A DNA stretch of 22,166 bases from a virus. The DNA lies in the IMG/VR virus record IMGVR_UViG_3300004457_000420, positions 1 to 22,166 of that record, one strand, 5' to 3'. Both the position numbers and the translations under genes were made by a program. Positions within the stretch are counted from its first letter, which is position 1. Every line of letters begins with the position of its first letter. A model generated the notes under the pieces. The model saw nothing but the letters and a program-made list of their open reading frames with translations, searched no databases and had not been told where the DNA came from. Below are positions 5,151-22,040 of the stretch, piece after piece.

Positions 5151-5434
5151 GTTTCAGAGCATTGTCCAATATCATGGGAGCATTGTCCAATCTCATGGGT
5201 GCTCTCGCGGACCAATACACGGCAGCAATCGATCGCGTAGTGGGCCAAGCCATGGTCGAATCCGGGAACGACATGGAACGTGTCAGCATCGTGACCGACC
5301 TCAACACGTTGGATGTTCAACGCGGATGGGTGGAGCTAGACGGCAAGCGCTTCGGGCCCGTCGTCAGCATTCGTCACGACGTCGAGAAGATGACGGTCGG
5401 CGTCGTGGTTGAGTACCCGGATGGTGGGGCGTGA
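5147..5434 (+). CDS. Hypothetical protein with N-terminal seven-residue repeat
   Basis: This 95-residue protein starts at GTG 5147 (GTGA overlap with the previous stop). ATG codons at 5174 and 5195 are in-frame alternatives. The N-terminus repeats the heptad A-L-S-N-(I/L)-M-G twice, encoded by a 21-bp tandem repeat, and forms an amphipathic or weakly hydrophobic helix. The rest is a beta-rich domain (W-V-E-L-D-G-K-R-F-G-P-V-V-S-I and M-T-V-G-V-V-V-E-Y). No family is recognised. If translation starts at a later ATG, the repeats would lie partly or wholly in the leader and could be regulatory. The next gene follows through another GTGA overlap. Confidence 0.65.
   Translation: MSFRALSNIMGALSNLMGALADQYTAAIDRVVGQAMVESGNDMERVSIVTDLNTLDVQRGWVELDGKRFGPVVSIRHDVEKMTVGVVVEYPDGGA
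5158..5199. repeat. 21-bp tandem direct repeat with ATTG-N2-CAAT palindromic core
   Basis: Two adjacent 21-base units (5158-5178 and 5179-5199) differ at one position. Each holds ATTGTCCAAT, an inverted repeat with 4-base arms (5161-5170 and 5182-5191). The spacing of 21 bases is two DNA helical turns, so both palindromes face the same side of the helix. The unit is more AT-rich than its surroundings. It encodes the heptad repeat of the gene at 5147. It may be a binding site pair or a slippage duplication. Confidence 0.75.
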
Positions 5435-5868
5435 GCGAGTTTGGTATCCCCACGCCGCGGCTAGATGACTGGCTCAGCCGCGGACTAAAAGCAGCGCGCG
5501 AGCGCCTAGACGCTGAAGCAGAAGAGCGAGAACGTGAGCGCCACGCTTCCGAACTGAGCAAGCCGCCACGTCCGGCTCGTGTCACATCAAAGGAAGAGCG
5601 GCGAGCGGCTAGGCTGCGCAGCAAGTACGACCTGCTGCCGGGCGAGTACGACGCCATGCTGGCTAGCCAGGGCGGCGGATGCGCCATCTGCGAGTCTAGG
5701 TTCAACGTGAACGGGAAACCGTTCGTCGTCGACCACTGCCACAAGACGAACAGGGTCCGCGGGCTCCTGTGCACCACATGCAACACGGGGATCGGCCACT
5801 TGCGAGATAGTGAGTTCTTGCTCGCTCGTGCCATCGAGTATCTACGGAAGAGCAAACAAGATGCTTGA
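5431..5868 (+). CDS. Recombination endonuclease VII-like HNH nuclease
   Basis: The 145-residue protein starts at GTG 5431 (GTGA overlap). The C-terminal half matches phage endonuclease VII: Y-D-L-L-P-G-E-Y-D-A-M-L (66-77), zinc ligands C84/C87 and C114/C117, the catalytic D-H-C-H segment at 101-104, the R-G-L-L-C motif at 110-114, and N118. The family resolves Holliday junctions and other branched DNA, clearing replication and recombination intermediates before packaging. The N-terminal 60 residues are a charged helix (E-E-R-E-R-E-R) that could help dimerisation. All expected catalytic and zinc residues are present, so activity is likely. It lies two genes before the terminase large subunit, which suits a role in preparing concatemers for packaging. 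Confidence 0.92.
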   Translation: MSEFGIPTPRLDDWLSRGLKAARERLDAEAEERERERHASELSKPPRPARVTSKEERRAARLRSKYDLLPGEYDAMLASQGGGCAICESRFNVNGKPFVVDHCHKTNRVRGLLCTTCNTGIGHLRDSEFLLARAIEYLRKSKQDA

Positions 5869-6148
5869 AATCAGCCAGCACCCGGCCGAGATCCCGCTCA
5901 TGGTGCCACTAGCTGAGCTCCAGCGTCGATCTAAGCGCTCGCGCGCCACGCTCTACAGGTGGCTGAAGCGGAAGAACGTTCGCACGTTCGGGTACGGCGT
6001 GATGATTAGCGATCTCATGAACCAGTGGCCGGCGATGTACCTGTCACTTACTCAGGCCGTTGGCGGCAAGATCAAGATGCCACCGTGTACCGAGTGCGGG
6101 GGGCCGACCACCTGCAAGTGTTTGGCGTGCGAGGCGACTGTTTTCTAG
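5861..6148 (+). CDS. Hypothetical HTH plus zinc-ribbon small protein
   Basis: The 95-residue protein is called from ATG 5861, overlapping the endonuclease gene by 8 bases. The frame is open upstream to 5810, but that part lies inside the nuclease. Residues about 15-44 look like a MerR/excisionase-type helix-turn-helix (V-P-L-A-E-L-Q-R-R-S-K-R-S-R-A-T-L-Y-R-W), with an R-T-F-G wing. The C-terminus has a cysteine cluster, C76-x2-C79 and C85/C87/C90. It is probably a small DNA-binding protein. Being the last gene before the terminase large subunit, it is a second candidate for a small terminase or a late transcription regulator. Neither is proven. Confidence 0.7.
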   Translation: MLEISQHPAEIPLMVPLAELQRRSKRSRATLYRWLKRKNVRTFGYGVMISDLMNQWPAMYLSLTQAVGGKIKMPPCTECGGPTTCKCLACEATVF

Positions 6149-6309
6149 CCAAGTGACGAATTATGAGACGCTCCGTTGCATGGTGTCTCATTGTGGTTCA
6201 CGAAATGGGGCTTCAAAATAGGGACGCGACGACAGACACTCGTCGCAGCACACCCAGGGTCCGCAGCGTCGACGTCCTCCCCGTCGCCTCGGACCCGACC
6301 TAATTCCAG
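6149..6309. promoter_or_regulatory. Intergenic region upstream of terminase; inverted repeat and weak promoter-like sequence
   Basis: This 161-base gap breaks the run of overlapping genes. ATGAGAC at 6163-6169 pairs with GTCTCAT at 6185-6191, and the stem can extend inward by G-T wobbles. Just after it, TTGTGG (6191-6196) and CAAAAT (6214-6219), 17 bases apart, make a weak sigma70-like pair. The area is more AT-rich than the genes around it. A late promoter with an operator, or an RNA hairpin at the early/late boundary, would fit. There is no T-run for a classic terminator. Confidence 0.3.
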
Positions 6310-7650
6310 ATGCTCTCCCCGCGCACGCGCGCAGCGCTCAACGCACGGAGTCGAGTAGCCGCAAAGGCCGACTTCCAAGCGTTCATGCGCAAGGCGAGCC
6401 CGCGCTACTCGTTCCCAAAGCACCTGAAGCCGTACCTCGACATCCTCGAGGAGGCAGCAAGTGGCAGCGTGGTCGAGGTGGTTGTTTCGACGCCGCCGAG
6501 GCACACGAAGACCACGACGACGCTGCACAAGATCGTCCAGCTCATGGGCATGCGCCCGGGGCTGAAGGTCGCGTATATCACCTACGGCGCCGAGCTCTCT
6601 GAGAGCAAGAGCCGCGAGGCCAAGCAGATCGCACTCGACGCGGGCTACGCACTGGCCCCCGACCGCAGCGCGAACTTTGAGTGGGAGTTGACGAACCGGT
6701 CGCGCTTCACGGCGACGGGCATCGGCGGCCCGCTCACTGGCAAGGGCTTCAACCTCGTTGTCGTCGACGACCCGCACAAGGGTCGCGCAGAGGCCGAGAG
6801 TGTGGCCGAACGGACCAAGGTCATCGACTGGTTCAATTCGGTGGCGTACACGCGCAAAGAGCCCGGCGGCACGTCCTTCGTTGTCGTGCAGACACGATGG
6901 CACCCCGACGACCTTGCTGGGAAGCTCATCGGCAAGGGCTGGCGCTGCGTCAACCTGCCCGCGATTGACGAGCACGAGAACGCGCTATGGCCCGAGGCCT
7001 GGCCCATTGTCGAGCTTCGGAAGATCGAGGCGCAGATTGGTCCGTACGAGTGGACGTCGCTCTACCAAGGGCAGCCTCGCAGCCGTGGCGCCTCGGTGTT
7101 TGGCGAGCCGACGTACTATGACGAGCTGCCGCGCACTGGGTACCGCGTCAGCATCGGCGCGGACTTCGCGTACACGAAGCGCACCTACAGCGATTACAAC
7201 GTCGCGGTGGTGCTCTACCACGTAGTAGGCGGCGTCTCGTTCGTTGCGGACGTGGTGCGAGTGCACGAGACGGTGGACGTCTTCGCGCACCAGGTGAAGG
7301 CCTTACAGGCTAAGCACGGCGGCAAGGTGACGGCATACGTCGCCGCCACCGAGCGTGGCGTGACCGAGCTCCTCAAGACCAAAGGGTTGCGAGTCGACGC
7401 AATCACCGCAGTTACTGACAAGTTTTCACGAGCCCAACCCGTCGCAGCCGCTTGGCGCACGGGCAAGGTTCTCGTTCCAAGGTCGGCCCCGTGGCTCGAC
7501 GCGTTCCTCGGTGAGGTGTTGAACTTCACCGGAGTGAGCGACGACCACGACGACCAAGTCGACGCCATAGCCGGAGCGTTTCACCCGTTCTCGCTCGGCT
7601 ACTCGAAAGAGCGCGTCGACTACGGCGAAGAGGGCTTCACGTTCGGCTAA
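6310..7650 (+). CDS. terL: Terminase large subunit (packaging ATPase/nuclease)
   Basis: This 446-residue protein is the DNA-packaging motor and headful or site-specific nuclease that docks on the portal. Motifs seen in order: a P-loop region S-T-P-P-R-H-T-K-T (60-68), Walker B with catalytic acid L-V-V-V-D-D-P-H (149-156), the coupling motif V-V-V-Q-T-R-W-H-P-D-D-L (191-202), the Y-Q-G-Q-P segment (252-256), and an RNase H-like nuclease domain with G-A-D-F (283-286) and D-D-H-D-D-Q-V-D-A (411-419). Length fits the family. Oddity: the residue before the P-loop lysine is Thr where PPRHGK is usual. The ATG at 6310 is preceded in frame by a TAA at 6301 and lacks a clear ribosome binding site. Confidence 0.95.
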   Translation: MLSPRTRAALNARSRVAAKADFQAFMRKASPRYSFPKHLKPYLDILEEAASGSVVEVVVSTPPRHTKTTTTLHKIVQLMGMRPGLKVAYITYGAELSESKSREAKQIALDAGYALAPDRSANFEWELTNRSRFTATGIGGPLTGKGFNLVVVDDPHKGRAEAESVAERTKVIDWFNSVAYTRKEPGGTSFVVVQTRWHPDDLAGKLIGKGWRCVNLPAIDEHENALWPEAWPIVELRKIEAQIGPYEWTSLYQGQPRSRGASVFGEPTYYDELPRTGYRVSIGADFAYTKRTYSDYNVAVVLYHVVGGVSFVADVVRVHETVDVFAHQVKALQAKHGGKVTAYVAATERGVTELLKTKGLRVDAITAVTDKFSRAQPVAAAWRTGKVLVPRSAPWLDAFLGEVLNFTGVSDDHDDQVDAIAGAFHPFSLGYSKERVDYGEEGFTFG

Positions 7651-15458: not shown

Positions 15459-16997
15459 ATGGCTATTGAACTCACGGGTATCGACCTCTCGAACCCGCAG
15501 CCGGGGACCAAGCGCGAGATCGTTTTCGCCCAGGGCTCCAGCGGTGGCCTCACGCGCGCGCGCGACGTCGTCATCTTCTGTAACAAGCTTTCGTCCGTTG
15601 GTAGCGGCTCGGTCGATGGGCTCGGCGATTCGCTGAACACGCCGATCCCGATCTACAACGGGCAGGACGAGATCATCTCGCGCTTCGGGCACAAGTCCGA
15701 GGCCAAGTTGCTGCATAAGGTGTTCACTCGCGTGAACAAGACCGCTCAGGTGTGGATGCTCTGCGTCCCGCCCGGGTCTGGTAGCGCAACGGCTGACTTC
15801 ACGTTCGCCACTGCGGCGTCTGGAGCATCCGCGGTCATCATCGACTTCCTCGGCGAGCAAGAGCAAGTCGCCGTCGCGAGCGGCGACAGCGTGACCGCGA
15901 TCGCGCTTGCGGTGTCGACGCGCGTCAACGCGATGCTCGATTGGCCCATCACGTCGAGCCCTAGCGCTGGCGTGCTGACGGTCACGGCCGCGTGGGCGGG
16001 CTCGCGTGGCGACCACTACCTGAATCAGCTTCGCATGCGGTTCACGAAGTCAGTTGCTACCACGGTCACCAAGGGCAGCGTTACCGCTGGCTCGACCGAC
16101 GACGACCAGACCACGGCGATCTCGAATCTCGAGAGCTACGACATCTACTACCAGGTCAACCCGAAGCAAGTTGTCGCGGCTCCCACGAGCACGGACAACG
16201 GCATCGGCGAGCACCTCGCGTCGCTGACGACTCAGGTCGCCGCGACTGTCGGCAAGGCCGGCGTGCTCATCGCTGGCAACGTCGGCACGCCTACGCAGGC
16301 GTCGACCGTTGCGGTGGCGATGAACAAGGAATGGTCGCACCTCTGCCACGCGGAGAACAGCGACTGGTCTGCGGGCATGATCGCGGCGCATCTAGCCGGT
16401 ATCATCCAGAGCCGTCAGGCGTCGAACCCGGCCGCGAACCTCGCGGGCTATGGTGGCAAGTCGGCCGATACGCTGTACGTGCCCGACCCGTACGCCAAGA
16501 CGGACCGCGCGACGAGCGCCGAGATCACGACGCTACTCAACAACGGCGTGACGCCGATCGCGTTCTCGTCCACGGGCAAGCCGTCGATTGTGTGGCTCGT
16601 CACCACGAAGAGCCAGACCAACAGCGTCGCGGACTACCGCGCTCGCGCGGGTCACATCCCGTCGGTGATGTTCTTCGCTTGGGAGATCCTCAAGGGGATC
16701 TGGAACAGCGAGGCGCAGCCGAACGTGGCGAACGACCCGGCCGACGGCGAGCAGCGATTGCCTGGATTCACCTACCCGAGCGACGTGCGCGGCATGGTGT
16801 ATCGGACGATCGACATCCTCATTGATGGCGGCGCTGGAATCCCGACCTTGCTCGACCCGTCGCAGCGACAGGCGATGAAGGATTCGGTTGTGGTCGAGCG
16901 ACTGACGAGCGGCGTGGCTTGTCGTGTGGAGCTCGCTGCGGTGCGCCACCTGCTCAAGGGCCACTTCAAGCTCCTCGAAGTCAGCCCGGCGATCTGA
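15459..16997 (+). CDS. Contractile tail sheath protein (Mu gpL-like)
   Basis: The 512-residue protein matches contractile sheath proteins by size, place and sequence pattern. The N-terminus is strand-rich. The middle has T-x-x-I-A-L-A-V-S-T-R-V-N-A segments. Residues about 355-390 contain L-L-N-N-G-V-T-P-I and an S-I-V-W-L-V-T-T-K-S strand, the usual sheath core. The C-terminal part has the V-E-L-A-A-V-R-H-L-L-K-G-H-F-K-L end of the inner domain. It contracts around the tube to drive DNA delivery and defines the phage as a myovirus. No split or frameshift is seen. No strong ribosome binding site lies in front of it, so coupling to the upstream gene is likely. Confidence 0.92.
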   Translation: MAIELTGIDLSNPQPGTKREIVFAQGSSGGLTRARDVVIFCNKLSSVGSGSVDGLGDSLNTPIPIYNGQDEIISRFGHKSEAKLLHKVFTRVNKTAQVWMLCVPPGSGSATADFTFATAASGASAVIIDFLGEQEQVAVASGDSVTAIALAVSTRVNAMLDWPITSSPSAGVLTVTAAWAGSRGDHYLNQLRMRFTKSVATTVTKGSVTAGSTDDDQTTAISNLESYDIYYQVNPKQVVAAPTSTDNGIGEHLASLTTQVAATVGKAGVLIAGNVGTPTQASTVAVAMNKEWSHLCHAENSDWSAGMIAAHLAGIIQSRQASNPAANLAGYGGKSADTLYVPDPYAKTDRATSAEITTLLNNGVTPIAFSSTGKPSIVWLVTTKSQTNSVADYRARAGHIPSVMFFAWEILKGIWNSEAQPNVANDPADGEQRLPGFTYPSDVRGMVYRTIDILIDGGAGIPTLLDPSQRQAMKDSVVVERLTSGVACRVELAAVRHLLKGHFKLLEVSPAI

Positions 16998-17056: not shown

Positions 17057-17431
17057 ATGCCTCAACTTTACGATCAGATCCTCATGGCCGTGAATGGCCA
17101 GATTCTCGGCGAGGCCGAGAGTGTGGAGATCCGAAACGAGAACACGTCGCAGGATGTGTTGACGCTCGTCAAGGGATTCGCTGGCGAGACCCCGGGACCC
17201 GACAAGATCGTGTGCTCGGTGTCGTCGTTCCTGCCGAGCGCGGGCCAGGAGTTCGCGTTCGACAAGGCCGAGTTGCTCCACGCGGTCTACACCGTGAGTT
17301 TCATTCAGCGCAGCGGCTCGAAAAAGCTGACTTCGACTGGGTTCTTCCGCAACTTCCGCGCGAGCGCTGGCGTGGGGCAGAACAGCAAGATCGACGTCGA
17401 GTTCCACGGCACGCCTGGCAAGTTTGAGTGA
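17057..17431 (+). CDS. Tail tube protein
   Basis: The 124-residue protein follows the sheath gene, the fixed order in Mu-like contractile tails. It is beta-rich with the tube-protein pattern: an early strand pair (L-M-A-V-N-G-Q-I-L-G-E-A-E-S-V-E-I), a loop with G-F-A-G-E-T-P-G-P, and late strands ending F-F-R-N-F-R-A-S-A-G-V-G-Q-N-S-K-I-D-V-E-F. It forms stacked hexamers through which DNA passes. CGGAG at 17042-17045 is a weak ribosome binding site. Hairpins lie just upstream. Confidence 0.88.
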   Translation: MPQLYDQILMAVNGQILGEAESVEIRNENTSQDVLTLVKGFAGETPGPDKIVCSVSSFLPSAGQEFAFDKAELLHAVYTVSFIQRSGSKKLTSTGFFRNFRASAGVGQNSKIDVEFHGTPGKFE

Positions 17432-17449: not shown

Positions 17450-17989
17450 ATGCAATCGCAGAAGTCTCCTATCGTGGAGGCGCTCGAGAAACGCCGTCGC
17501 AAGGTTCACACCTTCCCGGCCTCTTTCATTGGCGACGGATCCAGTAATGGCACCGTCGCCATTCGTGTTCCTAGCGTCGGCGAAGAGATCGCCGCGCGCG
17601 TACAGGCCCCCAAGTGGCTCGCGGAACACGGCGCGATCGACTACGAAGCCGAGACCGACATCGCGTCAATGTTCGTGGTGTGCGCGGCGTGGCGCGACGC
17701 GAGCGACCCCGAGAACGGCATAGCTTGCCCGCTGCCTGACATGCTGCGGGCTCGGCTCACCACGGACGAGGTGCAATACCTCGTCGGATGCGTTAACGAA
17801 GCCAAGCGCCGCGAGTCGGCGATCAAAGAATCGCTCACCGAACTCGAAGCCGCTGGGTATGTCGAGGCTGTCAAAGATTGCGCCGACGACGTGGCGCACG
17901 AGCTCATGGTGAACCTGGACCGACGTGCGCTTGAGGACCTCGCCGTGATGGCGTGTCGGAAGCTGGCGCAGTTCACGGGTGACGTATGA
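17450..17989 (+). CDS. Tail assembly chaperone-like protein, upstream copy
   Basis: The 179-residue protein lies between tube and tape measure genes, where tail assembly chaperones are encoded. It has an acidic, helical C-terminal half and a short beta N-terminus. Motifs are G-T-V-A-I-R-V-P-S-V-G-E-E-I-A (34-48), R-A-R-L-T-T-D-E-V-Q-Y-L-V-G (100-113) and L-E-D-L-A-V-M-A-C-R-K-L-A-Q (161-174). All three have counterparts in the gene at 20463, so the two look like divergent paralogues. Chaperones of this kind coat the tape measure protein before the tube forms. No slippery site for a frameshifted extension was found. It overlaps the next gene as ATGA. Confidence 0.72.
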   Translation: MQSQKSPIVEALEKRRRKVHTFPASFIGDGSSNGTVAIRVPSVGEEIAARVQAPKWLAEHGAIDYEAETDIASMFVVCAAWRDASDPENGIACPLPDMLRARLTTDEVQYLVGCVNEAKRRESAIKESLTELEAAGYVEAVKDCADDVAHELMVNLDRRALEDLAVMACRKLAQFTGDV

Positions 17990-18309
17990 GTGTCGAGGTG
18001 CAAGGACTCGATGAAGTCATCGCGCTCCTAGACAAGACGGCGAAAGAGCCTGGCAAGTTCGGCAAGACGGCGCGCGCTCGACTCCAGCGCGCAGTAAACC
18101 GCGAGCGCAACTCGCACGCGTACCAGAACCGCACGCACAGTGCCGAGACGAACACGCTGCTCTTGAGCGCTGAGACTGGCGATGACGTCGACCTCCGGGC
18201 AGAGATGCACGTGGAGTATGCGAGCTATCTGCAACGCGGATGGTCGAAGTTCGATGAGTCGGTGAAGGCCGCGCTTGCCGACTTGGACGCCGAGAGTAAA
18301 AAGCTTTGA
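17986..18309 (+). CDS. HK97 gp10-like / virion morphogenesis-like protein
   Basis: The 107-residue protein starts at the ATGA shared with the chaperone gene. The start, V-E-V-Q-G-L-D-E-V-I-A-L-L-D-K (3-17), and the later R-x-R-x-H-S-A-E-T-N-T-L-L-L-S segment resemble HK97 gp10-like neck/tail proteins and Mu G-type morphogenesis proteins, which share a G-L-D-E-L start and an 'R-T-G-x-L-x-x-S' middle. Y-A-S-Y-L-Q-R-G-W (about 78-86) is also typical ('Y-A-x-x-x-x-x-G'). The place is unusual, since gp10-like genes usually sit before the sheath or tail terminator genes. The assignment is moderate. Confidence 0.7.
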   Translation: MSVEVQGLDEVIALLDKTAKEPGKFGKTARARLQRAVNRERNSHAYQNRTHSAETNTLLLSAETGDDVDLRAEMHVEYASYLQRGWSKFDESVKAALADLDAESKKL

Positions 18310-18316
18310 CTAGCGC
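18307..18316 (+). repeat. TGACTAGCGC repeat, copy 2
   Basis: This is an exact second copy of the 10-base sequence at 17433-17442. It begins at the stop codon of the previous gene and lies 21 bases before the tape measure start. See the first copy for context and doubts. Confidence 0.4.
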
Positions 18317-18336
18317 TCGCCGCTGGTAACGACCGC

Positions 18337-20463
18337 ATGTCTACCATTACGTACCAGTTCCGCACTGTCGGCGCCGAAGCGGCTCGACGTGAGTTGCTCG
18401 CTCAGGCGGCAGCGGCGCGCGAACTGAACAAGGCGCAGCGAGACAGCGCGCGGGTAAGCGCCCCTGTGGCTCGTCGTGTGGGCAGTGGCAGCGACCCGCA
18501 GGTCAAGGCAGAGCAGGCCAGGACCAAGGCGCTTGCGGCTGAGGCGAAGAAGCGCCAGCGCGAAGAGGCCAAGCGCGCTAGCGAGTGGACGCGCGGCAAT
18601 GACAAGATGTTGCGCGCTCGCGAGCAGCACGCGCACCGCGAGACGCGCTCGATTGAGCAGGCGCAGAAGCGCCAAGCGGCGGCCATTCAGCGCGGACACA
18701 ATCAGCGCTTGGCTCAGGCTGGACGCGTCGAGAAGCAAATGCGCTACCGCCAGACGATGGCGTACGAGGCGCGAGCCGAGAGCATAAAGGCGACTCGCGC
18801 GGCTCGATTCGAAGCTTTCAACGACACCGTCGCGGGCGGAGCGATGGCTGCGGTGGGCATTGGGGCAGCGGCGACGCGCTCCTACATGGCGAACCAGCAG
18901 CGGTCGCGTGACCTCGCCGTCGGTGGCGGGCAGCCGGATCAGGCTGCGGCTTTGCTTGCGAACGCCGAGAAGACCGCGAAGAGCGTCACCGGCACCAGAA
19001 CCGAGGACATCCTAGCGGGACAGCAGCGCATCGTCGCGATGACGGGCAACATGGATCTTGCTCGCAACAACGGGCGGACCATGGCGCAGGCCTCGCGCGC
19101 GACCGGCGCGAGTGAGGAGGACATCGGCAGCCTCATCGCCACGCTAAACACGAAGTTCGGCATGACCGACCCGAACGAGATCAAGACCGCCATCGCCAAC
19201 GCGATCAGCCAGGGCAAGAGCGGCGCTTTCGAGATGAAGGACGCCGCTAGCTACATGTCCGAGATGGGAGCCGCTGGCCAGCGCTTCGGGCTCGACAAGG
19301 GCGGCACCGGATTCGCCAAGCTCGGCGCCATGGCGCAGGTTGCGCGCGGCGCCACCGGCAGCGGTGCCGAGGCGTCGACCGCTACGCAAGCCATGCTGCG
19401 ACAGTTCATCTCGAAGAGCGACGAGATCAAGCAGATGAACGGCGGCAAGGATGTCGTGTTCGCCGACAAGGGCCGCACCAAGACGAACGACATCGTTGAC
19501 GTCATCGCAGGCACCATCAAGGCCGCAGGCGGCGACCGCAAGAAGCTCCAGCACGTCTTTCGCGACGAAGGCAGCACCGGCGCAAGCGGGTACATCGTGG
19601 CCTTCAACGAGGCCGCGGATGCGCTTGGCAAGAACGCGACTGAGGCCGAGAGAATGGCCGCGGGCGAGGCCGCGATTCGCAAGATGTTCGAGACGGCCAC
19701 CAGCGCCGGATCCAACTGGGGTGACGTGGTGCAGGATGCCGCGGCTCGGACGGATTCGAGCGAGGCGCGCATGACCACCGCGTGGGATACCATCGTTACG
19801 TCGGTGGGCTCGGCCGTTACGCCATCGCTCGAGAAACTTTCGTCACAAAGCGGCGACGTTGGGGCGGTGTTCGCGATGCTCGCCGAACAGGTTGGAGGCG
19901 CGATCGGTGCGATCGGCGACCTCATCGGCACGCTTCGACGGCTCGGCATCATGGGCGAGGCGACGCCGACGGACCGAGCCGGCCGGCTCGATGAGATCCG
20001 CGGCGACAAGGCCGACCTTGAGAAGAGCGCAGCCGATGGCACGCTCGGCAACGTCGGCAAGAAGCGACTGAAGCAGCTGACCGAAGAGGAAGGCAAGCTC
20101 GTCAACGACATGGCGAAGGACATGGGGCTCACGAGCGGCACGGACGGAAAGCCTGTCGCGCCCATAGGCCCCGACGCAGGCCCGCGAGATCTTGCTTCGC
20201 AGTTCGCGAACTACGGATTCAGCGCGAGCAACTCCGACATCACGCTCAAAGAACAGGCGCGCATGGCCGAGGGCCCGAAGAAGGGGAACCTGGACTTCAC
20301 GCCGTCGGCGATGGTTCAGAAGGGCCTCGAAGGGCTCAATACCGATCAGGGCGGCGAAGACCTCAAGAGCGCGGCAAGCGACCTCAAGGGCGCCGCCAAG
20401 GCCATTGCATCGAGCACCATGCAGAGCGGCAACCCGCTCGGCGCCATCTGGGCCGCGTTCTGA
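18337..20463 (+). CDS. Tail tape measure protein
   Basis: The 708-residue protein is the largest in the window and sits after the tube and chaperone genes. Residues about 10-160 are a highly charged coiled coil rich in Ala, Arg and Gln. A small hydrophobic patch follows (A-G-G-A-M-A-A-V-G-I-G-A-A-A, 166-179). The region about 200-480 resembles the TP901 tape measure domain, with E-D-I-L-A-G-Q-Q-R-I-V-A-M-T-G-N and S-Y-M-S-E-M-G-A-A. The C-terminus is low in complexity. It sets tail length and holds the tube lumen before DNA ejection. Family tape measures span roughly 1.5 angstrom per residue, so a tail of about 100 nm would be expected. Its stop overlaps the next start as TGATG. Confidence 0.9.
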   Translation: MSTITYQFRTVGAEAARRELLAQAAAARELNKAQRDSARVSAPVARRVGSGSDPQVKAEQARTKALAAEAKKRQREEAKRASEWTRGNDKMLRAREQHAHRETRSIEQAQKRQAAAIQRGHNQRLAQAGRVEKQMRYRQTMAYEARAESIKATRAARFEAFNDTVAGGAMAAVGIGAAATRSYMANQQRSRDLAVGGGQPDQAAALLANAEKTAKSVTGTRTEDILAGQQRIVAMTGNMDLARNNGRTMAQASRATGASEEDIGSLIATLNTKFGMTDPNEIKTAIANAISQGKSGAFEMKDAASYMSEMGAAGQRFGLDKGGTGFAKLGAMAQVARGATGSGAEASTATQAMLRQFISKSDEIKQMNGGKDVVFADKGRTKTNDIVDVIAGTIKAAGGDRKKLQHVFRDEGSTGASGYIVAFNEAADALGKNATEAERMAAGEAAIRKMFETATSAGSNWGDVVQDAAARTDSSEARMTTAWDTIVTSVGSAVTPSLEKLSSQSGDVGAVFAMLAEQVGGAIGAIGDLIGTLRRLGIMGEATPTDRAGRLDEIRGDKADLEKSAADGTLGNVGKKRLKQLTEEEGKLVNDMAKDMGLTSGTDGKPVAPIGPDAGPRDLASQFANYGFSASNSDITLKEQARMAEGPKKGNLDFTPSAMVQKGLEGLNTDQGGEDLKSAASDLKGAAKAIASSTMQSGNPLGAIWAAF

Positions 20464-21077
20464 TGACCATCCTCGCCGACGCCATCAAAGCCCGCGCAGC
20501 CAAGCGCCCGCTCACCAAGGTCGACGGCCACGAGTTCTTGCGCGACGCGCCTGATGGCTCGTGTGTGTACGTGCGGCCTCTCGTGGTCGGCGAGCGCGAC
20601 GAAGCGCTTGCGTGCGCGCTCAAGTACCGCAAGGCGTTGATCGCCGACATCGGCGAGAAGGCAGCGCACGTGCTCGCGGACACCTCGCTCGTCGAGGACC
20701 CGACCATTGTCGAGCGCGTGTGGCGCGCGACCGTGAACGAGGACGCCTCGCCCGCGTTCCCGTCGTCCGCTTGGATGCGCGACAACATGACCGCCGAGGA
20801 AGTGGCGCACTTGTACGGCGTGCTCGATGCCGTCCAGCGCAAGGCGAGCCCGACGCCGCCCATGGATCTCGACGCGCGCGAGAGCCTCGCTACCTACCTC
20901 GCGAGCGTGAGCGAGAACCCCGACGCGGACGCCGCTGTGGGACGCTTCCCGCGCGAGTTCCTCACCGACATGCTGCTATGGGCATGCAAGGCGCTGCAAC
21001 TCGCACGCGAGCAGCACGCGGACACGTTGCCGCCCGTCGCAGTTGCTGACGAGTCGGGCTTCATCCCCGACCCGTGA
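20463..21077 (+). CDS. Chaperone-like protein, downstream copy (paralogue of the gene at 17450)
   Basis: The 204-residue protein starts in TGATG overlap with the tape measure stop. Three blocks match the gene at 17450 in order and spacing: C-V-Y-V-R-P-L-V-V-G-E-R-D-E-A (34-48), M-R-D-N-M-T-A-E-E-V-A-H-L-Y-G (105-119) with V-Q-R-K-A-S (124-129), and F-L-T-D-M-L-L-W-A-C-K-A-L-Q-L (166-180). The pattern V-x-V-R-P-L-x-x-G-E-R also fits small phage tail chaperones. It is probably a second tail-assembly chaperone, or a related protein acting on the next baseplate or hub component. The gene is coupled to the next one by GTGA. Confidence 0.72.
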   Translation: MTILADAIKARAAKRPLTKVDGHEFLRDAPDGSCVYVRPLVVGERDEALACALKYRKALIADIGEKAAHVLADTSLVEDPTIVERVWRATVNEDASPAFPSSAWMRDNMTAEEVAHLYGVLDAVQRKASPTPPMDLDARESLATYLASVSENPDADAAVGRFPREFLTDMLLWACKALQLAREQHADTLPPVAVADESGFIPDP

Positions 21078-21613
21078 GCGTCAAGCCACCGGCCGACGTT
21101 GACCCGGCGGACCTGTTTCTAAGCCTCATCGAATGGCGGCCGACTCGTGAGATACCTTACCGACTTCCCGAGCTTCCCGGTGTGGTTCTCTCAGTGCGAG
21201 CAATCGGTGCTGCCGCCTTCGAGCGATGCGCGCGCAGCGGGGCAAGTGCGATGCTCGCCGAGTGCCTACTCGCAGACGGCGAGCCGGCATTCTCTAGCGC
21301 GCGTGATGCCGCGTACCTCGACACCGAGGCGCAGCAAACTCTACTGGCTCACGCGGTCGCCGCGCTCGATGTTGTTTGCCCGCTCTATCGGCGTATCGAC
21401 ATCGACGCGTGGGAACTCGCTATGAAACGCGGGGCCAACGCCCTGCCATCTGTCGCGCGCGGGTTCATCTCGTGCGTCGACATCATCCCGACAATGGGCC
21501 GCGAGCCAATGCGCCGCGACCATCCAGAGCGCTATTGGGGCCGCCCCCCGTGCGAACTACTCGACGGCCACTGGCTCGCGTTTCGCGCTGCCGCTGACAT
21601 GTTCTACCGATAG
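21074..21613 (+). CDS. Hypothetical tail-module protein, coupled to chaperone-like gene
   Basis: The 179-residue protein starts at GTG 21074 (GTGA overlap). It has a short strand pair (Y-R-L-P-E-L-P-G-V-V-L-S-V-R-A-I-G), an acidic middle, then helices containing V-A-A-L-D-V-V-C-P-L-Y-R-R-I-D-I-D-A-W. No family is recognised. Being coupled to the chaperone-like gene, it could be the second half of a two-gene chaperone set, the role usually filled by a frameshifted extension in other phages. That is inference from position; there is no slippery sequence to support a frameshift. Confidence 0.68.
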   Translation: MSVKPPADVDPADLFLSLIEWRPTREIPYRLPELPGVVLSVRAIGAAAFERCARSGASAMLAECLLADGEPAFSSARDAAYLDTEAQQTLLAHAVAALDVVCPLYRRIDIDAWELAMKRGANALPSVARGFISCVDIIPTMGREPMRRDHPERYWGRPPCELLDGHWLAFRAAADMFYR

Positions 21614-21621
21614 GACCATCA

Positions 21622-21825
21622 ATGAACGAATCACACGACTGGGCGCTGGTTCTTTCGACGTCATCGTCCCCGGGTGGCTCCGTTGACCGCGTCGAGCAGT
21701 GCCGCAAGTGCTGCCTGATACGGCATGACTACGAATACGGAACGGGACAACGCTCGCCAAATTACCCGCGATTCATTAGCTACGGCTCCGCCGTGGTTGA
21801 CGACGGGTGTAGCGCAAGCAAATGA
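21622..21825 (+). CDS. Small cysteine-containing hypothetical protein
   Basis: The 67-residue protein has AGGA at 21612-21615 as a ribosome binding site. It contains C27-x2-C30-C31 and one late cysteine (63), with aromatics between them (Y-E-Y-G, Y-P-R-F-I-S-Y-G). The C-R-K-C pair plus one more cysteine could form a small zinc site, though the fourth ligand is uncertain. No family is recognised. It is coupled to the next cysteine-rich gene by ATGA, which repeats the paired arrangement seen at 9760-10328. Confidence 0.6.
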   Translation: MNESHDWALVLSTSSSPGGSVDRVEQCRKCCLIRHDYEYGTGQRSPNYPRFISYGSAVVDDGCSASK

Positions 21826-22040
21826 ACGTTGCGTGTCTCGATGACTACCGCCGTGGTGAGTGGGTCATCGCAAAAGAGGCGTGCCGCTATTGTGGGCCAC
21901 TTCGCTCGGTTTGCGTCCTGCCACGCGTTGCCGACCCGGACGCCCTGGAGTGCTCATCGTGCGGGCAGATGACGGCCGCCGTCTCGCACTACCTAACGGA
22001 GTCCAATGACTGGGCGCCGCGGCTCGAATCTGTCCGATAA
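21822..22040 (+). CDS. Small zinc-ribbon-like protein
   Basis: The 72-residue protein starts at the ATGA shared with the previous gene. C21-x2-C24-G and C44-x2-C47-G form a typical zinc ribbon (two knuckles 20 residues apart), with further cysteines at 5 and 31. The rest is short helix and aromatic residues. No function is known. Its stop overlaps the next start as TAATG, so it is translated together with the probable DNA-circulation gene. Confidence 0.65.
   Translation: MNVACLDDYRRGEWVIAKEACRYCGPLRSVCVLPRVADPDALECSSCGQMTAAVSHYLTESNDWAPRLESVR

Follow-up and report, generated by a model that had tools for sequence, protein, structure and literature searches.

Short-form tail assembly chaperone genes on both sides of the tape measure gene and a putative stand-alone long form in an uncultured contractile-tailed phage

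The IMG/VR record IMGVR_UViG_3300004457_000420 was analysed over its full 22,166 bases (the window; the record is perhaps itself a fragment). Its source is an uncultured tailed phage whose tail, judging from the sheath gene, is contractile. We consider it probable that the tail gene cassette encodes a tail assembly chaperone (TAC) system that works without frameshifting. Two genes, TAC1 and TAC2, located on either side of the gene for the tape measure protein (TMP), would supply short forms of the chaperone. A third gene, P3, directly behind TAC2, would supply the long form, and the dose is possibly coupled to that of the TMP. The cassette runs in the order sheath, tube, TAC1, p107, TMP, TAC2, P3, two small cysteine-containing open reading frames (ORFs) and the start of a baseplate gene (Table 1). 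In phage lambda, as described in the excerpted text of PMC5009743, the TMP is bound by gpG and by the G portion of gpGT, and the T portion attaches to the tube; a gpG:gpGT molar ratio of 30:1 is of crucial importance. Recoding by the G/GT frameshift is conserved widely among tailed phages. In the window phage and its close kin this classic decoding trick was seemingly traded for ordinary genes.

A sequence-only reading of the window had proposed that the proteins from 17450 and 20463 are chaperone-like paralogues, and that the copy behind the TMP gene, coupled to the gene at 21074, may replace the frameshift. The positions of both genes, their layout around the TMP gene and the joining of the second to its neighbour by a GTGA overlap are all borne out. 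TAC1 and TAC2 share 24% identity over 161 columns by BLASTP (E 5e-6 as a single comparison). No other pair scores better when the 86 window ORFs of at least 90 residues are all compared with one another (E 4e-4, against 0.013 for the next pair). Their local score is 86, compared with 32.8 ± 5.6 for shuffled sequences, and none of 1000 shuffles reached it. A leave-out profile, built from the frameshift-type chaperones of 16 relatives without any window protein, was run on 207 window ORFs. It ranked TAC1 first (E 2.5e-11), TAC2 second (E 1.6e-9) and P3 third (E 4e-4), and besides TAC1 only TAC2 and P3 matched at E < 0.1. By sequence comparison TAC1 and TAC2 are homologues within the TAC family that is kept between the tube and TMP genes of relatives. 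Both are probably short (gpG-like) forms, with a putative role in binding the TMP. Searches of Pfam and PHROGs gave no meaningful match for TAC1, TAC2 or P3; 25 members of the chaperone family likewise gave no match to these databases at E 0.01.

The three motif blocks said to be common to TAC1 and TAC2 are real, but two had been spelled off by a residue. As first written, block 1 matches both proteins, block 2 matches TAC2 only and block 3 matches neither. The corrected forms, R-x-x-(L/M)-T-x-(D/E)-E-V and L-x-D-(L/M)-x-x-x-A-C-(R/K)-x-L, match TAC1 and TAC2, and each is found in 2 of 564 window segments.

The gene at 21074 encodes a third, more diverged member of the family, overlooked in the earlier reading. 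The P3 family aligns with the TAC family in hhalign with a probability of 96 and an E of 3.8e-9. Two models were built from 14 relatives, a G model of the short product and a GT model of the in-silico frameshift product. The window P3 scores 33.4 bits with the GT model and 12.1 with the G model, a gain of 21 bits, and in 19 of 19 P3 proteins tested GT beats G by 11–32 bits. For the 21 TACs of P3 genomes, GT minus G ranges from −18 to +1.2 bits, and the window TAC1 and TAC2 score at least as well with G as with GT, TAC2 being level. The near-identical L070, L090 and L092 were retained in both sets. Searched with a model of the relatives' −1-frame segments only, the 564 window segments yield the P3 C-terminus as top match (E 2e-6), ahead of the next at 0.28. 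By these matches P3 is the long (GT-like) form as a gene of its own, with a chaperone domain and a T-like C-terminus. P3 was classed as gpGT-like and not as a product of frameshifting from a short-form gene, because it has its own ORF and start and because TAC1 and TAC2 lack a slippery heptamer. The reading of P3 as an unrelated hypothetical protein was ruled out by the hhalign result and the preference for the GT model. Pfam gave no match for four P3 proteins, and the P3 of L080 had none among annotated phages.

The duplication of TAC1 and TAC2 might itself yield the second form and so replace the frameshift. In its favor, the two are homologous and both are without a frameshift signal: no in-phase XXXYYYZ heptamer occurs anywhere in TAC1 or TAC2, in the window or in the related contig L093, and TAC1 has no −1-frame T motif. 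This part of the proposed replacement stands. However, the G model scores at least as high as GT for both window proteins, and it is P3 that gains with GT. Relatives without the frameshift show a single TAC together with P3 wherever that region is covered. Nor does the tree settle a single duplication origin, an approximately unbiased (AU) test giving p = 0.088 against the four window and L093 proteins as one clade; the sisterhood of TAC1 and TAC2 is neither demonstrated nor firmly rejected. A replacement by the duplication is thus most improbable, and it seems to be P3, not the TAC1/TAC2 pair, that took over from the frameshift in the window's clade.

The comparison rests on relatives collected by a capsid search and then a capsid profile, which gave 49 loci. 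Viral scans with the single window proteins TAC1, TAC2 and sheath yielded no relatives, and the capsid profile had no match in the genome contigs searched. Relatives with tail genes carry a chaperone-like gene between tube and TMP and, where visible, a baseplate gene 3′ of TMP. A single chaperone copy is usual, but L009 and L010 each carry a tandem pair. The counts of distinct genes for motif, heptamer and G/GT scores exclude repeat views (L012-L018, L060-L068, L072-L077, L083-L088) and near-identical contigs (L024, L025, L028-L032, L045). Also left out were contigs that end before the chaperone gene or have no recognised tail gene, for example L002-L006, L020-L022, L026, L033-L036, L038, L039, L042, L047, L051-L055, L057 and L059.

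Reading the 3′ ends of the TAC genes in three frames revealed a −1-frame motif, roughly (F/Y)xGxxxxxLxxGHxLxWxAARR. Six-frame translation of 25 TAC 3′ regions gave 415 segments; a model of six P3 C-termini matched 10 of them at E < 0.1, all in the −1 frame of relatives. After iteration the motif was found in 16 of 16 distinct P3-less genomes, a count made with a model iterated on the same loci (10 of the 16 were found before iteration). A regular expression of the motif gave no match, and profiles were used instead. The first tandem copies of L009 and L010 were tallied separately from the 16, and neither has the motif. Since only the second copy keeps it in these tandem loci 5′ of TMP (L009 17099-18272, L010 17040-18239), the first has the appearance of a gene devoted to the short form.

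An in-phase CCCTTTN heptamer lies 45–117 nucleotides (nt) upstream of the motif in 14 of the 16 P3-less relatives, L008, L037 and L050 among them. Ten are CCCTTTA, two CCCTTTT and two CCCTTTC. Synonymous resampling gave an expectation of 0.37 and a maximum of 4 in 2000 rounds; the expectation is somewhat low because the null cannot draw TTA where the sample of a locus's other genes has none. The remaining two relatives have TTTCCCT (L041) and TCCTTTT (L009). TTA, the Leu codon used in ten of the 14 heptamers, is rare in the nearby sheath, tube, TMP and baseplate genes (0–2 codons in 15 of 16 loci; 10 of 143 Leu codons in L037). We infer that the P3-less relatives use a lambda-type G/GT −1 frameshift, mostly at CCCTTTN. 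Among the 21 P3-type TAC genes the −1 motif is found in none (0 of 318 segments at E ≤ 0.2) and CCCTTTN in none, and some other XXXYYYZ heptamer is present in 8.

A −1 frameshift might still be hidden in the window, leading from the end of TAC2 into P3 or from the end of TAC1 into p107. The downstream genes are in the −1 phase at both junctions, and the 4-nt overlaps exist in the window and in L093 alike. Any 4-nt ATGA or GTGA overlap, however, places the gene that follows in −1. P3 begins at a start codon of its own and has an N-terminal chaperone segment of its own, TAC1 and TAC2 have no heptamer in phase, and P3 precedes TAC in 24 of the 25 other contigs that carry it, so that it can not be an extension of TAC there. 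We regard a hidden frameshift as very unlikely.

The structure comparison suggested for both proteins was informative for TAC2. An AlphaFold2 model of TAC2 from a 24-sequence alignment reached a predicted local confidence (pLDDT) of 82. Its best match in the PDB is 2ob9, the HK97 tail assembly chaperone, with a Foldseek probability of 0.99 and an E of 0.017, which is not below 0.001. The Z score is 8.6 over 105 residues, where the tool warns that Z < 8 (about 13 for helical folds) may mean a common arrangement only; 3klu (YqbN) follows with 6.0 and others reach at most 3.1. Because the Foldseek E exceeds 0.001 and the fold is mostly helical, the match depends on rank, probability and Z in combination. 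The model of P3 has low overall quality (pLDDT 60.6), and a plain Foldseek search with it returned only noise. In a second look, P3 residues 21–110 aligned to 2ob9 with Z 6.6 and 2.9 Å over 82 residues, and 2ob9 was the sole entry at Z ≥ 2 among 31 chains aligned. The predicted chaperone fold of TAC2 is supported by these models, and that of P3 more weakly. Identity between the HK97 protein and TAC2 or P3 is 13–16%, with no family link through Pfam or PHROGs.

Several points weigh against the proposed frameshift-free system, in addition to the limits given above with the iterated motif model, the resampling expectation and the structure models. In pairwise BLASTP, P3 against TAC1 or TAC2 is negative, and a comparison with shuffled sequences gives no excess either. 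A profile from 23 relatives puts P3 third at an E of only 0.045, and P3 is absent from the matches of a profile made from five P3-type TACs. The L093 TAC2 scores 1.2 bits higher with GT than with G, and the L093 TAC1 obtains 5.6 (G) and 5.8 (GT) bits, which are not significant, its assignment being made through the window orthologue. In a trial on five P3-type TACs with other segment limits there were two weak matches to the T motif, in frame 0 of L081 (E 0.052) and in frame −1 of L080 (E 0.38). No consistent RNA structure was found 3′ of the slippery site in relatives (14 z-scores, −1.9 to +2.1), and inspection by eye showed no clear Shine-Dalgarno sequence 5′ of TAC1, TAC2 or P3.

Another explanation would be that TAC2 and P3 descend from chaperones but have taken on a new job, for example in the baseplate or tail tip. 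Genes between TMP and baseplate genes usually encode baseplate parts, and TAC2 and P3 lie in this position, 3′ of TMP. Both are diverged, and P3 is without a close match. Yet they are the only window ORFs besides TAC1 to match the leave-out chaperone profile, and P3 retains the T-like motif of other P3 proteins and of the 16 −1 frames. The cassette shows no other long form, and P3 is the neighbour of TAC 5′ of TMP in 24 of 25 other contigs. A new function is therefore unlikely, and we return to P3 as the candidate long form.

The layout is repeated gene by gene in contig L093 (7,073 nt), which carries tube, TAC1, p107, TMP, TAC2, P3 and baseplate genes, with 4-nt overlaps at TAC1/p107, TMP/TAC2 and TAC2/P3. 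Protein identities between the two contigs are 30–54%, with 32% for the TAC1 pair and 37% for the TAC2 pair. TAC1 and TAC2 of the window and L093 form separate orthologous pairs, each with support of 100/99; both copies are therefore old. L093 also bears on whether a foreign chaperone cassette was joined behind the TMP gene by an assembly artefact. The window comes from one metagenomic contig, and the contigs closest to it by capsid (L002, L003) stop short of the tail genes. But L093 is an independent contig that shares order and overlaps at this divergence, which is a strong argument against misassembly; the probability of an artefact is negligible.

P3 is found in 25 other contigs, several of them near-identical. 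In 24 of the 25, P3-TAC lies 5′ of TMP (the L082 contig ends after TAC). The pair follows the tube gene in 23 of these 24, the preceding ORF in L091 not being recognised, and p107 comes next after TAC in all 24 but L082. No chaperone was found on the far side of TMP in the 20 of 24 contigs where that side is visible (in L081 unidentified ORFs lie there); L030, L031, L082 and L092 end too early to show it. In the sheath tree the window groups with L093, whose sheath is partial (40% of columns), as its sister (98/97), and both fall within the P3-type clade (100/100). By parsimony this placement indicates that the post-TMP layout was derived within the P3-type clade. The replacement of the frameshift by P3 apparently preceded the move behind TMP, because 24 of the 25 other P3 contigs keep P3-TAC 5′ of TMP. 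In a larger TAC tree the TAC2 pair adjoins frameshift-type genes (91/92, not starred) and TAC1 falls weakly among P3-type genes; TAC2 and P3 may therefore stem from another lineage.

Two side observations concern these cassettes. L095 combines a P3-type cassette at 5278-6798 with a sheath that clusters among those of frameshift-type phages, an indication that the chaperone cassette is swapped whole. Two tandem tube-like genes are located 5′ of P3 in L079 (8215-8979), and also in L089, L090 and L092.

A mechanism can be proposed by analogy with lambda. TAC1 and TAC2, like gpG, would coat the TMP. P3, like gpGT, would recruit the tube protein through the T-like C-terminus behind its chaperone domain. 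In the relatives one gene would give both forms through the −1 frameshift, mostly at CCCTTTN, and in the window's clade the long form would be a gene of its own. In the window and L093, TAC2 and P3 would be made from 3′ of TMP while TAC1 is supplied from the 5′ side. Because start and stop codons overlap (the ATG of TAC2 with the TMP stop in TGATG/ATGA, the GTG start of P3 with the TAC2 stop in GTGA), the dose of TAC2 and P3 may follow that of TMP by translational coupling. Such coupling, if it operates, would contribute to the short:long ratio. A further possibility, which we hold to be rather doubtful, is that the relocation of TAC2 and P3 is a selected dose setting. The overlaps would then give about one-to-one expression with TMP and a low copy number of the long form without frameshifting, TAC1 would provide the bulk of the coating, and TAC1 and TAC2 would be distinct subunits for different parts of the TMP.

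The lambda-type G/GT scheme, known also in P2-type form, shares with the window a common N-terminal chaperone domain, a longer C-terminus in the long form and genes placed by TMP. The P3-less relatives fit this scheme. The window differs in that the long form has a gene of its own, that two short forms are present, and that the long form lies 3′ of TMP together with one of them. Some T4-like phages are reported to carry separate genes for a short form and a longer fusion form and to use no frameshift (Vladimirov, Gautam and Davidson 2022, Virology 566:9-15, as cited in PMC10885494), although the same source is credited, in the excerpt of PMC12846349, with slippery sequences in T4-like short-form genes. 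The T4-like case, as described in these citing texts, resembles P3-TAC as a short and long gene pair without frameshift, a likeness by description only. In the window's family, frameshifting and frameshift-free states coexist and the genes flank TMP. Two chaperone ORFs, apparently expressed separately, are described for Microbacterium cluster EA phages in the text covered of PMC7302621; some subclusters are likewise without an evident frameshift, and that text mentions no post-TMP copy. The chaperone gene is typically just 5′ of the TMP gene according to the portion available of PMC12859696, and endonuclease-like genes, not chaperones, follow TMP in the corresponding portion of PMC3706429. Searches of the open-licence literature turned up no report that places chaperone genes 3′ of TMP or names CCCTTTA as the slippery site of a chaperone; the papers found there with both CCCTTTA and frameshift concern other subjects by title, including one SPbeta phage review.

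One protein family displays four states: frameshifting, tandem-copy, two-gene, and relocated two-gene with two short forms. A direct test is therefore possible of frameshifting against gene order and coupling as means to a fixed ratio. The analysis also proposes a role for genes without a Pfam or PHROGs family, and hints where to seek chaperones in phages that have no annotated one.

Table 1. Features of the tail gene cassette in the window.
Feature	Position	Strand	Basis and remarks
Tail sheath protein	15459..16997	+	phrog_165 tail sheath, E 8.5e-34; contractile tail
Tail tube protein	17057..17431	+	Name from position behind sheath; no family match
TAC1, putative short-form (G-like) tail assembly chaperone 5′ of TMP	17450..17989	+	179 amino acids (aa); leave-out profile, first rank
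p107, small protein (107 residues) behind TAC1	17986..18309	+	54% to L093 over 76 aa
Tape measure protein (TMP)	18337..20463	+	phrog_794 tail length tape measure, E 1.5e-13
TAC2, putative second short-form (G-like) chaperone 3′ of TMP	20463..21077	+	204 aa; leave-out profile, second rank
P3, predicted stand-alone long-form (GT-like) chaperone	21074..21613	+	hhalign to TAC family, GT model, T motif
T-like C-terminal motif of P3 (PERYWGRPPCELLDGHWLAFRAAADMF)	21518..21598	+	Model of relatives' −1-frame segments
Small Cys-containing ORF, P3-baseplate interval	21622..21825	+	No Pfam match; absent from L093
Small Cys-rich ORF, P3-baseplate interval	21822..22040	+	No Pfam match; absent from L093
Baseplate gene start, DNA-circularisation type, cut by contig end	22040..22166	+	Relatives' profile, E 6e-10

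The other products of the cassette compare as follows. The window tube protein has 31–34% identity to the ORF 3′ of the sheath in L007, L008 and L010, and 38% to its L093 counterpart. The TMP is 42% identical to that of L093 across 629 columns. P107 has a weak match to phrog_5 (tail completion or Neck1; E 0.023), the p107 proteins of relatives match phrog_5377, and it is perhaps a tail completion or neck-type protein. No p107-like ORF is listed in the TAC-TMP interval of the frameshift-type loci. The L093 homologue of the baseplate protein matches Pfam DNA_circ_N with an E of 7.7e-5. The two small Cys-containing ORFs (21622-22040) overlap each other. Elsewhere in the window, a gene with a VapE-like domain lies at the contig start (49-966; Pfam E 2.6e-78), and an Endonuclease VII-type gene (5431-5868; Pfam E 7.7e-25) is located shortly 5′ of the terminase gene.

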